Assembly: GCA_035308905.1 (NCBI GenBank)
Contig: DATGFS010000069.1
Span: forward strand, 1-33,256
Direction: 5' to 3'
Source of the DNA: a bacterium
GTDB lineage: Bacteria; Sysuimicrobiota; Sysuimicrobiia; Sysuimicrobiales; Segetimicrobiaceae
Length of the DNA: 33,256 bases
Shown: one piece after another, positions 14,110-30,298 of the stretch
How positions within the stretch are numbered: position 1 is the stretch's first letter
How the letters are laid out: the number at the start of each line of letters is the position of its first letter
The notes under the pieces: generated by a model
Databases searched by the model: none
What the model was told of the DNA's origin: nothing
Seen by the model: only the letters and a program-made list of their open reading frames with translations
Made by a program: the position numbers and the translations under genes

Positions 14110-14277
14110 TCATGGACGCCTGAGGAATCTCGAGTAGAAAGCCGCGAACACCAAGACAATGCCAATATTCACTGTCAGCCGCTCCCAGAATCGGGTTCTG
14201 AAGAACATGAAATCTACGCCGACTATGACGGCTGCCATCACCACCACGTAAAACACGACAGGTACCTGTCTGCCCAT
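14110..14277 (-). CDS. Small two-TM membrane protein (55 aa)
   Basis: Translation from the ATG at 14277 gives MGRQVPVVFYVVVMAAV and on to FLRRP. There are two hydrophobic segments (about 5-22 and 34-48) joined by a basic/aromatic loop (FFRTRFWERLT). GGCGAGGA lies immediately before the ATG, which is tight for a ribosome site; a TTG at 14301 is an alternative start with no site. The family is not known to me. It lies directly outside the left attachment repeat of the tRNA-Pro element. Before insertion it would have followed tRNA-Pro by about 40 bp on the same strand, perhaps in the same transcript. Confidence 0.6.
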   Translation of the reverse strand: MGRQVPVVFYVVVMAAVIVGVDFMFFRTRFWERLTVNIGIVLVFAAFYSRFLRRP

Positions 14278-14315: not shown

Positions 14316-14361
14316 TGGTCGGGGCGGCCCGATTTGAACGGGCGACCTTCTGCTCCCAAAG
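14316..14361. repeat. Attachment repeat (att, left): tRNA-Pro 3' fragment
   Basis: These 46 bp are identical to 17234-17279, running from the CCA end back to the CTTTG of the anticodon loop. After 14361 the sequence departs from any tRNA. It is the displaced original 3' end of the tRNA gene and marks the far boundary of the element. Confidence 0.9.
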
Positions 14362-14501
14362 TGTGCTCCGACCATTCTATCGAACAGCGCAGAAACGTAG
14401 GCGGGACGCGGAAACGCTTGTCCCACTTGCGTCCGTGACCGCCGCGACCTTTCGAGTCGCTTTGGGTTGTTCGGTATCGTTTCGGGAGATTCCGCCTCGG
14501 C

Positions 14502-14522
14502 AAGGCACCAGGAAGGCACCAG
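14502..14522. repeat. Tandem 10-bp direct repeat near the left att site
   Basis: AAGGCACCAG occurs at 14502-14511 and again at 14513-14522, an 11-bp period (one helical turn), about 140 bp inside the left att repeat. Helically phased short repeats near att cores are often integrase arm-type sites. Nothing else supports this here. Confidence 0.4.
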
Positions 14523-14606
14523 AACAGCGTGCCGCCGAGCGGTAAGAAAATAGGACGGTCCTACGCGCTTGTGCGTTCATGCGTGGCGGAAGGCCGAAAC
14601 GAACCA

Positions 14607-14635
14607 GGAGGCCGCCCCCGTCGGAGCGGCCCTCC
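14607..14635 (-). terminator. Hairpin after the secreted Ig-like protein gene
   Basis: GGAGGCCGC and GCGGCCCTCC pair with one bulged C, 12 bp past the stop at 14648. On the minus strand the stem is followed by TGGTTCGTTTC, giving a moderately U-rich tail. It is a fair intrinsic terminator. Confidence 0.5.
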
Positions 14636-14647
14636 CCCGCGCAAGTC

Positions 14648-15022
14648 TTACCGCACGGTAAACTCGGTCTGCAACGTTCCCTTTCGATCCCCCGTCGCGC
14701 ACACGACCTCGAGTTGCCGTGTTTCCATAACATGGCCTTTGCCGCTGCTCGCCGCGGTCTTCCATGACCACCGAACGAGGCCGTCGCTCCCCGCTTTGCG
14801 GGCCGCTAAGTTGAAGTTGATCCCTTTTGTGATCGCGTGCGCTTGGCACATGGCACCGGCTTCAGTCTGAACCACGAGAGTCTCCTGCTCGCCGTACCCG
14901 ATGGGAGAGACGATTGAGACGAGTTTGACTGTAAGGTCTTCCGCCAAGGCCGTGATGCATGTCGTTCCGACTACTGCCGAGATCAATATCGTATTGAGCG
15001 CGAGCAGACGCAATGAGCGCAT
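14648..15022 (-). CDS. Small secreted Ig-like protein in the element (124 aa)
   Basis: The ATG at 15022 sits behind TTGGGGGGTGTTT; a GTG two codons upstream is less likely. A signal peptide spans about 1-27 (LRLLALNTILISAVVG, cut near ALAED). The mature part of about 97 residues is a predicted beta sandwich. Strand-like segments TLVVQTEAGAMCQAHAI, GLVRWSWKTA and LEVVCAT carry two Cys that could form a disulfide, and the chain ends in TEFTVR. This pattern matches small Ig-like modules common in secreted proteins of high-GC bacteria, in which a GLVxWxW core follows a Cys strand. The binding partner is unknown. It is divergent from the DUF5681-like gene. A CCAAGA/TCTTGG dyad at 15032-15048 overlaps its ribosome region. 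Confidence 0.7.
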   Translation of the reverse strand: MRSLRLLALNTILISAVVGTTCITALAEDLTVKLVSIVSPIGYGEQETLVVQTEAGAMCQAHAITKGINFNLAARKAGSDGLVRWSWKTAASSGKGHVMETRQLEVVCATGDRKGTLQTEFTVR

Positions 15023-15193
15023 AAACACCCCCCAAGAAAGAGTCTTGGAACCAAGGTCCTTGCCGCTGGATTCCTTGACGATTCTTTGATAACTTGCCGC
15101 ACCCCTTCTCTACGGGCCGGACAGCGCGCCGCCCGAGCATGCCGTCCGCCTGGGCGGACACCTGTCCGACATGCCGGATAAGGAAGGCCATCG

Positions 15194-15895
15194 TTGCCGC
15201 CAGCAGCCGCAACGCATACAATGCCCTCAATGGCGGTTGAGAGCAACGCGGGAACAACGCCTCGGCCCGGAGGAGCGACCGGCAAGGGCTTCGTGCCGGG
15301 GCAGTCCGGCAACCCCGGCGGTCGGCCGCGAGGGCTGGCCCGGATGGTCCGTGAGGCAGTGTCCGACGGCGCTGATGTGGTCGCGCTGATGACGGCCGTT
15401 CTCAAAGGCGACCGCAAGGCCCTGGGCGTCAGGACAGTCTCGCTCAAGGACAGGATGCAGGCGGCCGAATGGCTGGCCGAACGAGGCTTCGGCAAGACGA
15501 TTCCCGTCGTGGACCTTCCCGAGGAACGGCCGCAAGTTTCGTTTGAGGACCAGTTGCAAGCGTGGATGGAGCAACTGCCCCCGGCGCTGCGCGAGCCGCT
15601 CGCACGGGAACTCGACGCCCAGTTCTATGCGGCTATAGACGCGGAGGTCGCGAAGGCGGAAGCGGCAGTGCGCGCCAACCTGCCGGGACCACCGATTGAT
15701 ATTCGGGACTTCGTAGTCGCGCACCGAGCGGATTGTCTGACCATCCCAGGTGTTCGGGATGTCACGTTATCTGACTCGTACGACATCATCTTGGAGGTCG
15801 ATGCCGAAGTCCCCGACGATAGATTGATGTGGATAGAGCGCGAGGCTTGTAAACGTTTGCGACATCCCGTGGTAACGAAGAGGAGGTCACGTTGA
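15194..15895 (+). CDS. DUF5681-like phage/mobile-element protein
   Basis: This 233-residue protein uses a TTG at 15194 behind AGGAAGG; ATGs at 15221 and 15230 lack ribosome sites. Residues 28-45 carry the DUF5681 hallmark GKGFVPGQSGNPGGRPRG. A helical, charged region follows (LKDRMQAAEWLAERGFGKTIP), as in the DNA-binding-like proteins next to phage terminase genes. The rest (about 100-233) contains an acidic amphipathic section (SFEDQLQAWMEQLPPALRE) and a C-terminal tail with LSDSYDIILEVDAEVPDDRL that I do not recognise. In phages these proteins are thought to act near DNA packaging, as small-terminase-like or HTH proteins, but the function is not settled. Here no large terminase or capsid gene accompanies it. 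It is the best evidence that the element has phage ancestry. Confidence 0.7.
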   Translation: MPPAAATHTMPSMAVESNAGTTPRPGGATGKGFVPGQSGNPGGRPRGLARMVREAVSDGADVVALMTAVLKGDRKALGVRTVSLKDRMQAAEWLAERGFGKTIPVVDLPEERPQVSFEDQLQAWMEQLPPALREPLARELDAQFYAAIDAEVAKAEAAVRANLPGPPIDIRDFVVAHRADCLTIPGVRDVTLSDSYDIILEVDAEVPDDRLMWIEREACKRLRHPVVTKRRSR

Positions 15896-15915
15896 AGGGC
15901 GTCTTCTGGGCGCTT

Positions 15916-15996
15916 GCCACCATCTATACAGGGACGCCTGAATGGTGGCGTGGCTCTCGGGTGGGCGAGGAGGCCCGATCGGACCGTCACGCCACC
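15916..15996. promoter_or_regulatory. Mutually exclusive stem set after the DUF5681-like gene
   Basis: Segment B (15942-15952) can pair with A (15916-15923, 8 bp perfect) or with C (15988-15996, 9 bp perfect), but not both. This is the layout of an attenuator or antiterminator switch on either strand. It lies in a 260-bp stretch (15896-16155) where I find no convincing gene. Confidence 0.3.
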
Positions 15997-16155
15997 CTGC
16001 CCGTTGTCGATCACCGTCCCGACGATCGCTCCGCTCCGATAGATCGAGTACGTTGTTATCGGCCTGACCTCATCGCGCGGGGGACGCGTGTTTCGAATCG
16101 GCAACCAAGCGCACGTTGGGTCCTCGATCCGCGCGGACTATAACTAACCCATTGC

Positions 16156-16746
16156 TTACCCGCACACTGGGCTCCAGAGATACGTTTTTACCGTTTGCTC
16201 TTGAGGCCTCCCTCCACCCCCCCATGCGATCATGTTGACTTGTTGCATCTGAGCCTTTCCATCTAGCCGAAAGACTAGTAGCCTGTTCTTTAGTTTCTTG
16301 AAGATCCACGTGAACGTGTCGGTGTGGGGGGAATTAAGCCGGTAGTGACCGAGTAAGGCGCTCTCGGCGACGTTGGCACTGAAGGTCCTATTAAAGACGG
16401 GGCTTGTTGCCTCTACTTGATTAAGATCAAGAAAGGCTTTGTCACTCTGTGGCCACACAAATTCCCACACCCTTGCCTGCAGGCTATTCACGTCGACCGG
16501 CGTCGTCCCTCCATTGAGCAACGTTACCGCAACACTAGCAGCACACATGTCTTTTTGCGGCAAGACATGCCACTTCAGTTGCGCTTGAGACACATGGAAT
16601 TGTTCGAGAGACGGGGCTTCGGTGCGTATGAACTTGTTATACGTCCAGATGCCGCCTATGATGATTGCGATAATTTGGACGATGGCCTTAGCGACCTCAG
16701 TCCACCGAGCAATACCATCGTTGTGCATGTTTTCGGTCGGCTCCAT
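16156..16746 (-). CDS. Membrane-anchored protein of unknown function, low GC (196 aa)
   Basis: The ATG at 16746 follows GGAGGGGGAGACAC, an excellent ribosome site. A single TM segment near the N-terminus (about 18-37; VAKAIVQIIAIIIGGIWTYN) is followed by an extracytoplasmic domain of about 155 residues with beta character. This domain contains VSQAQLKWHVLPQ, CAASVAVTLLNGGTTPVDVNSLQARVWEF and RLLVFRLDG. The 'VTLLNGGTTPVDV' stretch resembles Ig-like domains of membrane-anchored proteins often found in defence or stress loci, but I cannot assign a family. Codon use and GC (near 50%) differ strongly from the chromosome, showing recent acquisition. It is the most foreign-looking gene of the element. 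Confidence 0.7.
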   Translation of the reverse strand: MEPTENMHNDGIARWTEVAKAIVQIIAIIIGGIWTYNKFIRTEAPSLEQFHVSQAQLKWHVLPQKDMCAASVAVTLLNGGTTPVDVNSLQARVWEFVWPQSDKAFLDLNQVEATSPVFNRTFSANVAESALLGHYRLNSPHTDTFTWIFKKLKNRLLVFRLDGKAQMQQVNMIAWGGGGRPQEQTVKTYLWSPVCG

Positions 16747-16805
16747 GTGTCTCCCCCTCCATACAGGTTCGTATTCGGTAAGTGCTTATGTCGCCTCGCA
16801 AGCGG

Positions 16806-16982
16806 CTATCCCACCGGGCTCAGCGGGCGCGTTTTCCAGGTCCCCGACGACTCCAAGAACTCCCGCTCCTCGGCAGTCCACTCGTGGTCGTCGAGTTCGC
16901 GGAGGTACGGCAGAATCTCGTAGCCGAGGCGAGTCAGCAGTTCGATCGGGATTGAGTCGGTGACGGTAACGCGAGGCATCAT
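16806..16982 (-). CDS. Possible small acidic protein (58 aa), antisense to HtrA remnant start
   Basis: The frame ATG(16982)-TAG(16806) encodes 58 residues beginning MMPRVTVTDSIPIELL. It has an amphipathic helical middle (GYEILPYLRELDDHEW) and an acidic stretch (TAEEREFLESSG). Third positions are mostly G/C, as in coding DNA. GAAGGGCACTT precedes the ATG pair. Its first seven codons overlap, antisense, the HtrA-like fragment on plus. It lies 59 bp downstream of the 196-aa gene's start on the same strand side, so it could be co-transcribed ahead of that gene. No family is recognised. Confidence 0.45.
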   Translation of the reverse strand: MMPRVTVTDSIPIELLTRLGYEILPYLRELDDHEWTAEEREFLESSGTWKTRPLSPVG

Positions 16983-17229
16983 AAGTGCCCTTCATCCCCA
17001 ACAGGGGCTAATACAACTCGACGCTGCGACGAACCCCGGTAACAGCGGCGGTCCCGTGATCACTGCGGGTGGTAATGCGATCGGCATCCTGGTCGGAGGC
17101 CTACCGAACACCCAAGGTCTCAACTTTGCCGTTGCACTGAACACCGTGCGCGACATCACATCTCAACTCTCGCCGATTCCGCGCCCGGCCCCTTCTGTCG
17201 GAAACGCGAACACACGCGAACCCAAGTAA
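16960..17229 (+). pseudogene. C-terminal fragment of an HtrA/DegP-type trypsin-like protease
   Basis: Residues TVTRGIISAL, IQLDAATNPGNSGGPVI and AIGILVGG match the last part of the S1C protease domain, including the catalytic Ser in GNSGGP. The His and Asp of the triad, the signal/TM region and a PDZ domain are all missing. The reading frame is stopped upstream at 16921. An in-frame GTG at 16960 exists but a protein from it could not be an active protease. The fragment ends 5 bp before the right att repeat, so it abuts the tRNA gene. It is either a remnant carried by the element or debris from an earlier event at the same att site. Confidence 0.72.
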
Positions 17230-17233
17230 GGTC

Positions 17234-17279
17234 TGGTCGGGGCGGCCCGATTTGAACGGGCGACCTTCTGCTCCCAAAG
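17234..17279. repeat. Attachment repeat (att, right) inside tRNA-Pro
   Basis: This is identical over 46 bp to 14316-14361. It forms the 3' half of the functional tRNA gene, from the CCA end to the anticodon loop, and is inferred to derive from the incoming element's attP. Confidence 0.9.
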
Positions 17280-17310
17280 CAGACGCGCTACCAAGCTGCG
17301 CCACGCCCCG
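17234..17310 (-). tRNA. tRNA-Pro (anticodon TGG)
   Basis: The 77-nt gene folds as a full cloverleaf: acceptor CGGGGCG/CGCCCCG, D stem GCGC/GCGC, anticodon stem TCTGC/GCAGA with loop TTTGGGA (anticodon TGG), T stem GCCCG/CGGGC with loop TTCAAAT, discriminator A and an encoded CCA. It reads Pro CCN codons. Its 3' half is the target of the integrated element that lies immediately downstream. Confidence 0.97.
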
Positions 17311-26663: not shown

Positions 26664-28460
26664 TTACCCCGTGCGCTTCCAGTCCGCGATATTCCACGTC
26701 TCCGCGTCGAACGCGGTCATGTTCTTGCCGGTGTCGAGCGTCTTCCCCCGGGCCGACGCGGACTTGCGGTTGATCAGCGGGATCCCGGCCACCTGGTCGA
26801 CCGCCACGTCGTTGGCCTTGATCCAGAGCTCCGCGTTCTTCTGCGGGTCGAGCTCCTTCAGGGCTTCGTCGAACAGCTTGTTGTAGTCCGCGCTCTGCCA
26901 GCGGACCAGATTGTCGCCGGACCAGTTGTTCTCTTTCTGCGCGATGTCGCGGGCCGGGTCGCCGCTGTACCACTGCCGCATGTACGGAATCGGCGAGAGG
27001 CTGAACGAGTCGGTGAACATCTCGATGTCGCGGTACAAGTGCGCGATCGTGTCGTTGTTGCCCGGCGAGCTGCTGAAGAAGACGCCGGCGTCCACCGACT
27101 GCAAATTGACCTTCGCGCCCAGTTTGTCGAAGCCGGCCTTGACGATTTGCTGCTCCTTCTGCCGCAGGCTGTTCACGCTGGTCACGTAGTTGACTTCCAT
27201 CTTGATGCCGTTCTTTTCGCGGACACCGTCCGGCCCGCGCTTCCATCCCGCCTCATCCAGCAGGCTGTTCGCTTTGTTGAGATCCATCGTCATCTTGGTG
27301 TTCTTGGAGTAGTACTTGCTCGGCGTCGTGAGCAGGTTCGGGGACGCGTCGCCAGTCTGGCCGTACAGCTGCGACGCCATCGTCTGCCGGTCGACCGCGA
27401 GCGCGAGCGCCTGGCGCACTTTGAGGTCCGACAGGAACGGATGTTTGGTCTTGACGGAGGAGCGCTGGCCGTCCACCTCTTTGTTCGGATCGGTCTCGTT
27501 GAGATAGAGGCACTCTACCCCGCCGCCCGGCTCGGTGAGCAGCGTGCCTTTGCCGCCGGCGATCATGTGCTCGAGCACGGGCCACTCGACCTGCAGGTTC
27601 CACGCGTAGTCGTACTCGCCGGTTTCGAGCACGGCGCGCGCCGCGGACACCGCGTCCCCGCCGCCCTTCATCTGCACCTGGCTGAACGCCGGCTTGTTCG
27701 GGTCGCGGTAGTACGGGTTGGGCTTGTAGACCACGAGGTCGCCCGGCCGGAACGTCTCCACCAGATACGGCCCCGTGCCGAAGGACTTGAGGTTGAAGGG
27801 CGCGTTGCGCGAGTTCGACCCGACGTAGGCGTCGAGCGCGTGGCGCGGGAGAATCGCGCCGTACGATCCGACGAACGGAATGTACCAGAACGGCGTGGGG
27901 TCTTTGAACGTGACCTTCACCGTGTACGCGTTGACCGGCTCGACCTTGGCGATGTTTGTGTAGCTGCCGTAGCTGGTGGCGCCGGTCTGCTTGTTGATCA
28001 CATACTGGTAGGTAAAGACGACGTCGTCGGACGTGAACGCCCGGCCGTCGGCCCATTTGACGCCCTGCTTGAGCTTGTAGGTGACGGAGCGGCCGTCTTT
28101 GGCCACGCCGCCGTTGGCGAGGGTCGGCACCTCCGCGGCCAGCACCGCGGTGAAGTTGCCCGCCGTGTCCGCGCTCAGCAGCGGCTCCATCACGATCCGC
28201 GAGGCGTGGTAATCCTTCGTGCCGTTGGCCAGGTGCAGGTTCACGATCGTCGGCGCCTGCCAGTAGAGCAGCTTCAAGGTACCCTGCGCGCCGCGGCCGG
28301 CCGCCGCCGCCTGCGCGGGCAGCGCGGTCGCGCGGTCGAGCAGCGTCCATGCCGCGCCGAGCGACAGGCCGAGCTCGCCCATCCGTACCACAACTTGGCG
28401 CCGCGTCAACCGGCGGCCTCGGAAATCCCTGACGAGCTTTCCGATATCGTCCTTCTGCAT
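26664..28460 (-). CDS. Family-5 peptide/oligopeptide substrate-binding protein (copy 1)
   Basis: This 598-residue SBP starts at an ATG behind GCAAAGGGAGGCGCTC. An N-terminal segment with LTRRQVVVRMGELGLSLGAAW (about 17-37) resembles a Tat-type twin-Arg signal, though the n-region is long. The SBP_bac_5 fold follows, with LKLLYWQAP, YKLKQGVKWADGRAFTSDDVVFTYQY (the family signature region), SFGTGPYLVETFRPGDLVVYKPNPYY and DLKVRQALALAVDRQTMA. It binds peptides or other oligomers outside the membrane and passes them to the DppB/C-like permeases. It is very similar along its full length to the next gene, copy 2. The ligand cannot be predicted from sequence alone. Confidence 0.93.
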   Translation of the reverse strand: MQKDDIGKLVRDFRGRRLTRRQVVVRMGELGLSLGAAWTLLDRATALPAQAAAAGRGAQGTLKLLYWQAPTIVNLHLANGTKDYHASRIVMEPLLSADTAGNFTAVLAAEVPTLANGGVAKDGRSVTYKLKQGVKWADGRAFTSDDVVFTYQYVINKQTGATSYGSYTNIAKVEPVNAYTVKVTFKDPTPFWYIPFVGSYGAILPRHALDAYVGSNSRNAPFNLKSFGTGPYLVETFRPGDLVVYKPNPYYRDPNKPAFSQVQMKGGGDAVSAARAVLETGEYDYAWNLQVEWPVLEHMIAGGKGTLLTEPGGGVECLYLNETDPNKEVDGQRSSVKTKHPFLSDLKVRQALALAVDRQTMASQLYGQTGDASPNLLTTPSKYYSKNTKMTMDLNKANSLLDEAGWKRGPDGVREKNGIKMEVNYVTSVNSLRQKEQQIVKAGFDKLGAKVNLQSVDAGVFFSSSPGNNDTIAHLYRDIEMFTDSFSLSPIPYMRQWYSGDPARDIAQKENNWSGDNLVRWQSADYNKLFDEALKELDPQKNAELWIKANDVAVDQVAGIPLINRKSASARGKTLDTGKNMTAFDAETWNIADWKRTG

Positions 28461-28498: not shown

Positions 28499-30298
28499 TC
28501 AGGCTTTACGCCGCCAGTCCGCGATGTTGCGCGTTTCGCTGTCGAACGGGCTCATGTTCTTGCCCACGTCGAGGTTATTGGATCGGACCGACACGATTTT
28601 GCGATCGATGAGCGGAATCGAGATCGCCTGATCGACGACGATGTCGTTCATCTTGATCCAGAGCGCGGCGTTCTTCTGCGGATCGAGCTCCTTCTCCGCC
28701 GCGTCGTACAGGGTGTTGTACTCCTTGCTCGTCCACCGGCAGATGTTGAGCCCGGACCAGCTGTTCTCTTTTTGCGCGAGGTCCTTGGCGGGGTCGCCGC
28801 TGTAGAATCGCCCCATGTACTGCAGCGGGAACGGTGACCCGAACGTCGAGGTGAACATCTCCAGGTCTCGGTAGAAGTGGGCGTACGTGTCGTTGTTGCC
28901 GGGCGAGCTGCTGAAGAAAACGCCGGCGTCCACGGACTGCAGCGTCAGCGCGGCGCCGACCTTGGAGAAGCCGTCCTTGACGATCTGCTGCTCCTTCTGC
29001 CGCAGGCTGTTCACGCTGGTGACGTACGTCGCCTGGAGCTTCACGCCGCCCTTCTCGCGAATCCCGTCCGGACCTTTCTTCCAGCCGGCCTCGTCGAGCA
29101 GCCGGTTCGCGCGCTCGATGTCGAACGTGATCTTGGTGTTCTTGGATGACAGCGAGGACGGCGTCGTCAGCACGTTCGCCGTGGCATCGCCCTCGAGGCC
29201 GTAGAGCTGCTTGGCCATCGTGCCGCGATCGATCGCGAGCGCCAGCGCCTGACGCACCTTCAGGTCGGTCAGGAACGGGTGCGGCGCCTTGACCGAGGAG
29301 CGCTGGCCGTCGATGTCTTTGTTGGGATCGGTTTGGTTGCAGTAGATCTGTTCGACACCCCCGCCGAGTTCCGTGAGGATGGACCCTTTGCCGGCCGCCA
29401 GCATGTGCTCCAGCACAGGCCACTCCACCTGCATGTTCCAGGCGTAGTCGTATTCGCCGGTCTCCAGCACCGCCCGCGCGGCGGACACGGCGTCCCCGCC
29501 GCCCTTGATCTGCACCTGGCTGAACGCCGGTTTGTTGGGCTCACGGTAGTACTCGTTGATCGAATAGACCACCAAATCGCCCGGCCGGAACGTGTCCACC
29601 TTGTAGGGGCCGGTGCCGAACGATTTTAGATTGAAGGGCGCGTTGCGCGCGTTCGAGCCGACGTACGCATCGAGCGCGTGCCGGGGAAGGACGACCCCGT
29701 CCTCGCCGACAAACGGCGCATACCATGCGGGCGTCGGCGTTTTAAACGTGATCTTGACCGTGTGGGTGTCGATCGGCTCGACCTTGTCCACCGTCGTGTA
29801 ATAGCCGTAGGTCGTCGCCGCGGTCTGCTTGTTTTGCACGTACTGGAAAGTGAACACAACGTCGTCGGAAGTGAAATTGCGCCCGTCCGCCCATTTCACG
29901 CCCTGCTTGAGCTTGTACGTGACCGACCGGCCGTCCGCCGAAATCCCGCCGTTCTGCCGGGACGGCACCTCGGCTGCCAGCACGGGCGTGAAGCGCCCGG
30001 CGGCGTCGACCGTCAACAGTGGCTCGAGGACCGGCCGCGATGCGTGAAAGTCCTTGGTGCCCTGCGCCAGGTGCGGGTTGACGATGGTCGGCGCCTGCCA
30101 GTAGAGGAGCTTGAGCGTGCCTTGCGAGCCCCGGCCGGCCGCGGCCGCGCGCGCGGGCAGCGCCGTCGCGCGGTCGAGCACCGCCCAAATCGCCGTGATG
30201 CCGAGCCCGAGGTCCATCATTCTGGCCACTACTTGCCGGCGGCTGAGCCGGCCGGTCTTCAACTCCTTCAGCAATTGCGCGATGTCGCGGTCCGCCAT
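28499..30298 (-). CDS. Family-5 peptide/oligopeptide substrate-binding protein (copy 2)
   Basis: This 599-residue protein starts at an ATG at 30298 that follows AAGGGGGCACGGA; an upstream start at 30319 has no ribosome site. It shares with copy 1 the twin-Arg-like signal (LSRRQVVARMMDLGLGITAIW), LKLLYWQAPTIVN, the DGRNFTSDDVVFTFQYV signature and the SSSPGNND stretch. Differences cluster in surface and pocket segments such as GGVEQIYCNQTDPN against GGVECLYLNETDPN in copy 1. It is first in the importer operon, divergent from glucokinase. The tandem pair suggests two ligands served by one permease pair, or gene dosage. The gap to copy 1 is 38 bp. Confidence 0.93.
   Translation of the reverse strand: MADRDIAQLLKELKTGRLSRRQVVARMMDLGLGITAIWAVLDRATALPARAAAAGRGSQGTLKLLYWQAPTIVNPHLAQGTKDFHASRPVLEPLLTVDAAGRFTPVLAAEVPSRQNGGISADGRSVTYKLKQGVKWADGRNFTSDDVVFTFQYVQNKQTAATTYGYYTTVDKVEPIDTHTVKITFKTPTPAWYAPFVGEDGVVLPRHALDAYVGSNARNAPFNLKSFGTGPYKVDTFRPGDLVVYSINEYYREPNKPAFSQVQIKGGGDAVSAARAVLETGEYDYAWNMQVEWPVLEHMLAAGKGSILTELGGGVEQIYCNQTDPNKDIDGQRSSVKAPHPFLTDLKVRQALALAIDRGTMAKQLYGLEGDATANVLTTPSSLSSKNTKITFDIERANRLLDEAGWKKGPDGIREKGGVKLQATYVTSVNSLRQKEQQIVKDGFSKVGAALTLQSVDAGVFFSSSPGNNDTYAHFYRDLEMFTSTFGSPFPLQYMGRFYSGDPAKDLAQKENSWSGLNICRWTSKEYNTLYDAAEKELDPQKNAALWIKMNDIVVDQAISIPLIDRKIVSVRSNNLDVGKNMSPFDSETRNIADWRRKA

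Follow-up and report, generated by a model that had tools for sequence, protein, structure and literature searches.

Within a 33,256-nt stretch of contig DATGFS010000069.1 (assembly GCA_035308905.1; the genome is denoted G000 and the whole analysed stretch the window), from a bacterium of the family Segetimicrobiaceae, a 2.9-kb unit without an integrase gene lies between two copies of the 3′ half of a tRNA-Pro gene. The copies, at 14316–14361 and 17234–17279, form a 46-bp direct repeat with 100% identity and a spacing of 2,918 bp; the expected chance count of such 46-nt repeat pairs in the window is ~5e-17, so that coincidence is negligible. The repeat spans tRNA positions 32–77, i.e., from the anticodon loop to the CCA end, of the single tRNA recognized in the window by both ARAGORN and Rfam, tRNA-Pro(TGG), which was also the sole match in the Rfam search. 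A genome-wide search with a 28-nt piece of the repeat, allowing up to three mismatches, returned the two repeat sites alone and no third copy. An earlier inspection of the letters by themselves (hereafter, the sequence-only reading) had described the perfect repeat, the intact tRNA at one end and a drop in guanine-plus-cytosine (GC) content between the copies, and our measurements agree: the GC content is 59.7% between the repeats vs 69.1% and 71.8% in the left and right flanks, respectively, though the fall is not bounded exactly by the repeat, the 300 bp directly beyond its distal copy being low as well, at 55.7%. In G005 (contig JAJPJJ010000035.1, C83), a relative from the same family, this tRNA-Pro gene is occupied by a 9.8-kb element (L013:6275–16102), with which the features of the window unit, given here from the distal repeat to the tRNA, can be compared (aa, amino acids; ORF, open reading frame).

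14316–14361, minus strand: attR core, the displaced orphan 3′ half of the tRNA, identical to the attL core.
14362–14560: attR (P) arm, homologous by alignment to its counterpart at attR in the G005 element.
14377–14386: CTATCGAACA, which forms an inverted pair with TGTTCGGTAT at 14468–14477; G005 has this pair too.
14403–14424: GGGACGCGGAAACGCTTGTCCC hairpin, with a counterpart in the G005 arm.
14504–14520: GGCACC twice in direct orientation, 11 bp apart; by motif comparison, probable arm-type sites of the integrase.
14648–15028, minus strand: cargo gene, 126-aa secreted protein with a signal peptide; distant relatives (27–46% identity) in 10 other genomes of the order.
15194–15895, plus strand: cargo gene, DUF5681 protein of 233 aa (E = 3.9e-7, above the cut-off); relatives in the congener G001.
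16156–16746, minus strand: cargo gene, 196-aa membrane protein with one helix and no family support.
16806–16982, minus strand: cargo, 58-aa ORF with 63% identity to an ORF on contig C74 of G001.
16960–17229, plus strand: C-terminal fragment of a truncated HtrA/Do-type protease (Trypsin_2 positions 97–144 of 144; HtrA models from ~145 on).
17189–17233, minus strand: attL interior, weakly similar to ~40 bp of the G005 P′ arm, followed by neither arm sites nor an integrase.
17234–17279, minus strand: attL core, the tRNA 3′ half (anticodon loop through CCA).
17234–17310, minus strand: intact tRNA-Pro(TGG), the target gene (ARAGORN; Rfam RF00005, 65.2 bits).

The proposal that the unit is an integrated element is supported by the G005 element, which occupies the same tRNA gene and has a homologous distal attachment arm. 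The ~200 bp directly inside the distal repeat align with the G005 arm with z = 11.1, a score reached by none of 500 shuffles, and the two arms have in common a pair of arm-type sites (GGCACC twice in the window, GGCACC and GGCACA in G005) as well as inverted sequences of the ATACCGAACA/TGTTCGGTAT type. The G005 element is bounded by 44-bp repeats identical at 42 of 44 positions and, unlike the window unit, encodes an intact 406-aa tyrosine integrase, the end of which lies ~15 bp from the tRNA, as well as an excisionase-like HTH_17 protein, a RepA-like AAA_25 ATPase and a large terminase (TerL). The arm homology also bears on whether the repeat is an insertion scar or arose by duplication of part of a tRNA or by misassembly. 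The contig indeed belongs to a draft assembly and its junctions are known from the assembly alone; however, the copy begins in the anticodon loop, a usual crossover position of integrases (PMC4383910), an element that does bear an integrase has, at the same tRNA, an attachment arm homologous to the sequence inside the copy, and both chromosomal flanks share one neighbourhood in the congener G002. Partial tRNA duplication is rejected on account of the arm homology to the G005 element, and the alternative as a whole, misassembly included, is exceedingly improbable.

The absence of an integrase, already asserted in the sequence-only reading, was confirmed: the PF00589 search detected no tyrosine recombinase on the window's contig, with all eight matches in the genome located on other contigs, and a tblastn search of the window with the G005 integrase revealed no remnant at E < 1. 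The arm sites that accompany this gene elsewhere are missing as well. Paired GGTGCC motifs are found 45–75 bp inside attL, overlapping or adjoining the integrase end, in G005, G029, contig C21 of G000 and contig C17 of G004, whereas the tRNA end of the window unit contains no GGTGCC on the tRNA strand and the second set of arm sites is absent. In their place, next to the tRNA, lies a protease fragment that retains only the serine-containing end of the domain, having lost its first two thirds, with its stop codon 5 bp from the tRNA end. We consider it likely that the 2.9-kb unit is a deletion remnant of a tyrosine-integrase element in tRNA-Pro(TGG), the parent of which belonged to the integrase family that is intact in G005 at the same tRNA. 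This parent would have inserted by recombination at the anticodon loop, with the element's own copy of the tRNA 3′ half restoring the gene and the original 3′ half displaced to 14316–14361. A later deletion on the tRNA side, the simplest reading of this end, would have removed the integrase gene together with the adjacent arm-type sites and brought the end of the HtrA-type protease next to the tRNA. The survivors, namely, a few cargo genes and the distal arm, would now form a passive chromosomal segment that, at most, could disappear when its repeats recombine homologously or be carried along by a new element inserting in the same tRNA.

Several observations weigh against this reconstruction. 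The similarity of attL to G005 is marginal (z = 3.6; reached by 3 of 500 shuffles) and confined to the first 40 bp. None of the cargo genes of the window is shared with the G005 element, so that the gene content of the parent may have differed. No clean empty site between the two original neighbours was found: the comparison with relatives lacking the insert, which the sequence-only reading had proposed, was possible only in part, in G002, where both neighbouring gene blocks are kept and the second tRNA fragment is absent, but a different 7.9 kb, with other genes, separates the blocks. Finally, the assembly is ~97% complete, and the missing part could hold an intact helper integrase. The likeness between the window and the attR arm of G029 contig 31 did not rise above that of shuffled sequences.

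The sequence-only reading had left the choice between a decayed element and one that depends on a helper, and the evidence now favours decay, because the integrase-side arm is missing together with the gene and the integrases of this subfamily in the genome are all truncated. If the 2.9-kb unit were instead complete and moved in trans by a tRNA-Pro-specific integrase of another element, identical core repeats, the paired arm-type sites kept in the distal arm and the several further integrase-less units in the same genome would all be readily accommodated, and potential helpers could be sought among the integrases for this tRNA in G005 and G029, the latter with a related enzyme at the same tRNA-Pro, or in the related integrase that adjoins the end sequence of a tRNA-Pro(GGG) on an IMG/VR contig; G004 also carries a related integrase at tRNA-Pro(GGG). 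However, the second arm-site set is absent at attL, a deletion is suggested by the truncated gene beside the tRNA, no further copies of the unit were found in 40 relatives, and an intact integrase of the G005 subfamily was not found in the assembly. The same-subfamily integrases at C21, from which the N-terminal regions for arm and core binding are missing, and at C72, a fragment, are both truncated and were rejected as in-genome helpers. Mobility in trans is thus possible but not favoured, att function is doubtful given the missing attL arm sites, and a complete, helper-dependent element appears unlikely.

The identity of the repeats had been taken in the sequence-only reading as a sign of a possibly recent insertion, which does not follow: one copy is part of a functional tRNA, a gene is truncated and one end of the element has already been lost. 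The repeats tell little of the age of the insertion, as 46 bp is short and one copy is under tRNA constraint. The locus is a worked case of the loss of the integrase end from a tRNA-integrated element with its repeats left intact, and perfect repeats alone are no proof of a recent or active insertion. Most likely, the unit is an ordinary leftover of a mobile element and not an active one.

The cargo offers few clues to function. The sequence-only reading was right about a DUF5681-like gene, and its two envelope proteins are plausible, given the signal peptide of one and the single helix of the other, without gaining family support: the 126-aa secreted protein matches no family in Pfam, PHROG or PADLOC, and a homologue of the 196-aa membrane protein is absent from the other 42 genomes of the order that were searched. 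It had passed over the HtrA-type fragment and the 58-aa ORF, the counterpart of which in G001 sits ~1.8 kb from an integrase gene. The PADLOC scan of the cargo yielded no defence matches, and no transfer genes were detected among the window ORFs scanned. At most, the DUF5681 protein could stand for a replication, packaging or hijacking function, through a very weak small-terminase match in PHROG (E = 0.034) that is far from significance.

The G005 element encodes TerL and an integrase, and its scanned ORFs have no significant match to a structural family; it is a candidate phage satellite. Its restored tRNA-Pro at attL (L013:16059–16133) ends in GACAG rather than GACCA, the displaced copy retaining CCA. 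Whether the parent of the window remnant was likewise a terminase-bearing, capsid-less phage satellite, with DUF5681 as a surviving packaging gene, is a narrower proposition that we hold only tentatively and think rather doubtful: the combination of TerL, RepA-like ATPase and excisionase-like gene in G005 and the weak small-terminase match speak for it, but that match is not significant, DUF5681 is absent from the G005 element and the remaining cargo of the window is not phage-like.

For almost every tRNA gene of G000, the 3′ flank was scanned for repeats of that gene's 3′ half. At tRNA-Pro(GGG), an integrase-less unit of 2,186 bp with a 43-bp repeat contains a PAP2-family gene, and at tRNA-Thr(CGT) (L062:99–1827, contig C28) two integrase-less units of 744 and 908 bp stand in tandem, bounded by perfect 3′-half repeats. 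The first encodes a pair made up of the antitoxin HigA and a toxin of the HigB type; the second encodes an antitoxin of the Phd/YefM type and, downstream of it, contains an ORF read as PIN-like, without a Pfam match. Nothing but toxin–antitoxin-type genes was recognized in these two islands, the smallest of all, in keeping with the notion that addiction modules withstand the last step of loss. Islands with integrases are also present in G000, at tRNA-Ala(GGC) (5.5 kb) and tRNA-Met (14 kb). The same scan of the congener G002 produced nothing above 19 bp. G006 has, along with weaker cases, a 4,633-bp unit at tRNA-Pro(GGG) in which GTGCCTT arm sites are kept at attL, the integrase is absent and a Gp49/RelE-type toxin gene is present. 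Partial tRNA-Thr(CGT) copies bound single or tandem units in G036, G033, G003, G004 and G001 as well. It is conceivable, if improbable in our judgement, that the units at tRNA 3′ halves (the 2.9-kb unit of the window, the 2.2-kb unit at tRNA-Pro(GGG) and the tandem 0.74- and 0.91-kb units at tRNA-Thr(CGT)) are not leftovers and constitute a cassette system, in which segments of one to five genes would be captured, stacked and moved by integrases in trans, like integron cassettes.

Additional traces of tRNA-Thr(CGT) were noticed along the way. On contig C64 of G000 (L187:9067–10423), three partial 3′ halves, far from any tRNA, bound two one-gene segments, one with a PNPOx-family gene and the other encoding a membrane protein, and orphan copies also occur on C22 and C31. 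On contig C9 of G004 (L186:4120–4608), the distal end of a 4.3-kb island has a tRNA-Thr repeat copy into which the N-terminal fragment of a trypsin-like protein extends, a mirror image of the window, where the protease fragment next to the tRNA is C-terminal.

Two observations concern other parts of the window. Just beyond the distal repeat (14110–14277, minus strand), a 55-aa ORF with two helices has DNA 89–95% identical to that in G001, G003, G004, G006 and G007, in unrelated contexts, with the similarity ceasing ~10 bp on either side. Amino-acid identity (84–93%) is below nucleotide identity, a pattern that points to a recent spread or to constraint acting at the nucleic-acid level; family searches gave a sub-threshold TrbC match at most, and there was no Rfam match. 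Further downstream, 27050–28350 and 28900–30150 form a diverged direct repeat of >1 kb, offset by ~1.85 kb and with many exact 16–24-mers in register, which probably represents a tandem gene duplication.

Among known systems, the closest anatomical parallel is the cis-mobilizable element (CIME), in which integration and transfer genes are lost and attL and attR are kept, and which a new insertion in the same site can carry along (PMC5704250). Like a CIME, the window unit is bounded by both repeats, derived from one tRNA target gene, lacks integration and transfer genes, and resides in a genome with other integrated elements; unlike in CIMEs, the arm sites of attL are gone, accretion with a second element is not seen at the locus, and the intact relative in G005 looks phage- or satellite-like rather than conjugative, carrying a terminase and not conjugation genes. 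The CIME label would describe the anatomy without implying a conjugative parent or functional att sites. By comparison, the label of a phage satellite, whether of the phage-inducible chromosomal island (PICI) or P4-like type, fails for the window unit, which has neither an integrase of its own nor a replication and packaging or hijacking gene set.

The islands catalogued by Islander likewise have a whole tRNA gene at one end and a correctly oriented 3′ fragment at the other, as found here, and 2,083 of 3,919 have their crossover in the anticodon loop, the same position as in the window (PMC4383910). Islander demands an integrase inside the island and a length of at least 2 kb (PMC4383910); these criteria would exclude the tRNA-Thr mini-islands and the integrase-less island of the window, and finders built on them miss much of the integrase-less class of tRNA islands. 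That class has a precedent in the ssrA islands of Dehalococcoides, 15 of 31 of which are devoid of an integration module (PMC3146451). There, too, one lineage holds several islands at a shared structural-RNA target, some with the module and some reduced to repeats, the difference being that those islands involve a serine recombinase and transfer-messenger RNA, whereas the islands described here involve tyrosine recombinases and tRNA genes. Integrase-less islands bounded by structural-RNA repeats are already established, and the tRNA-Pro(TGG) unit is a new, CIME-like example.

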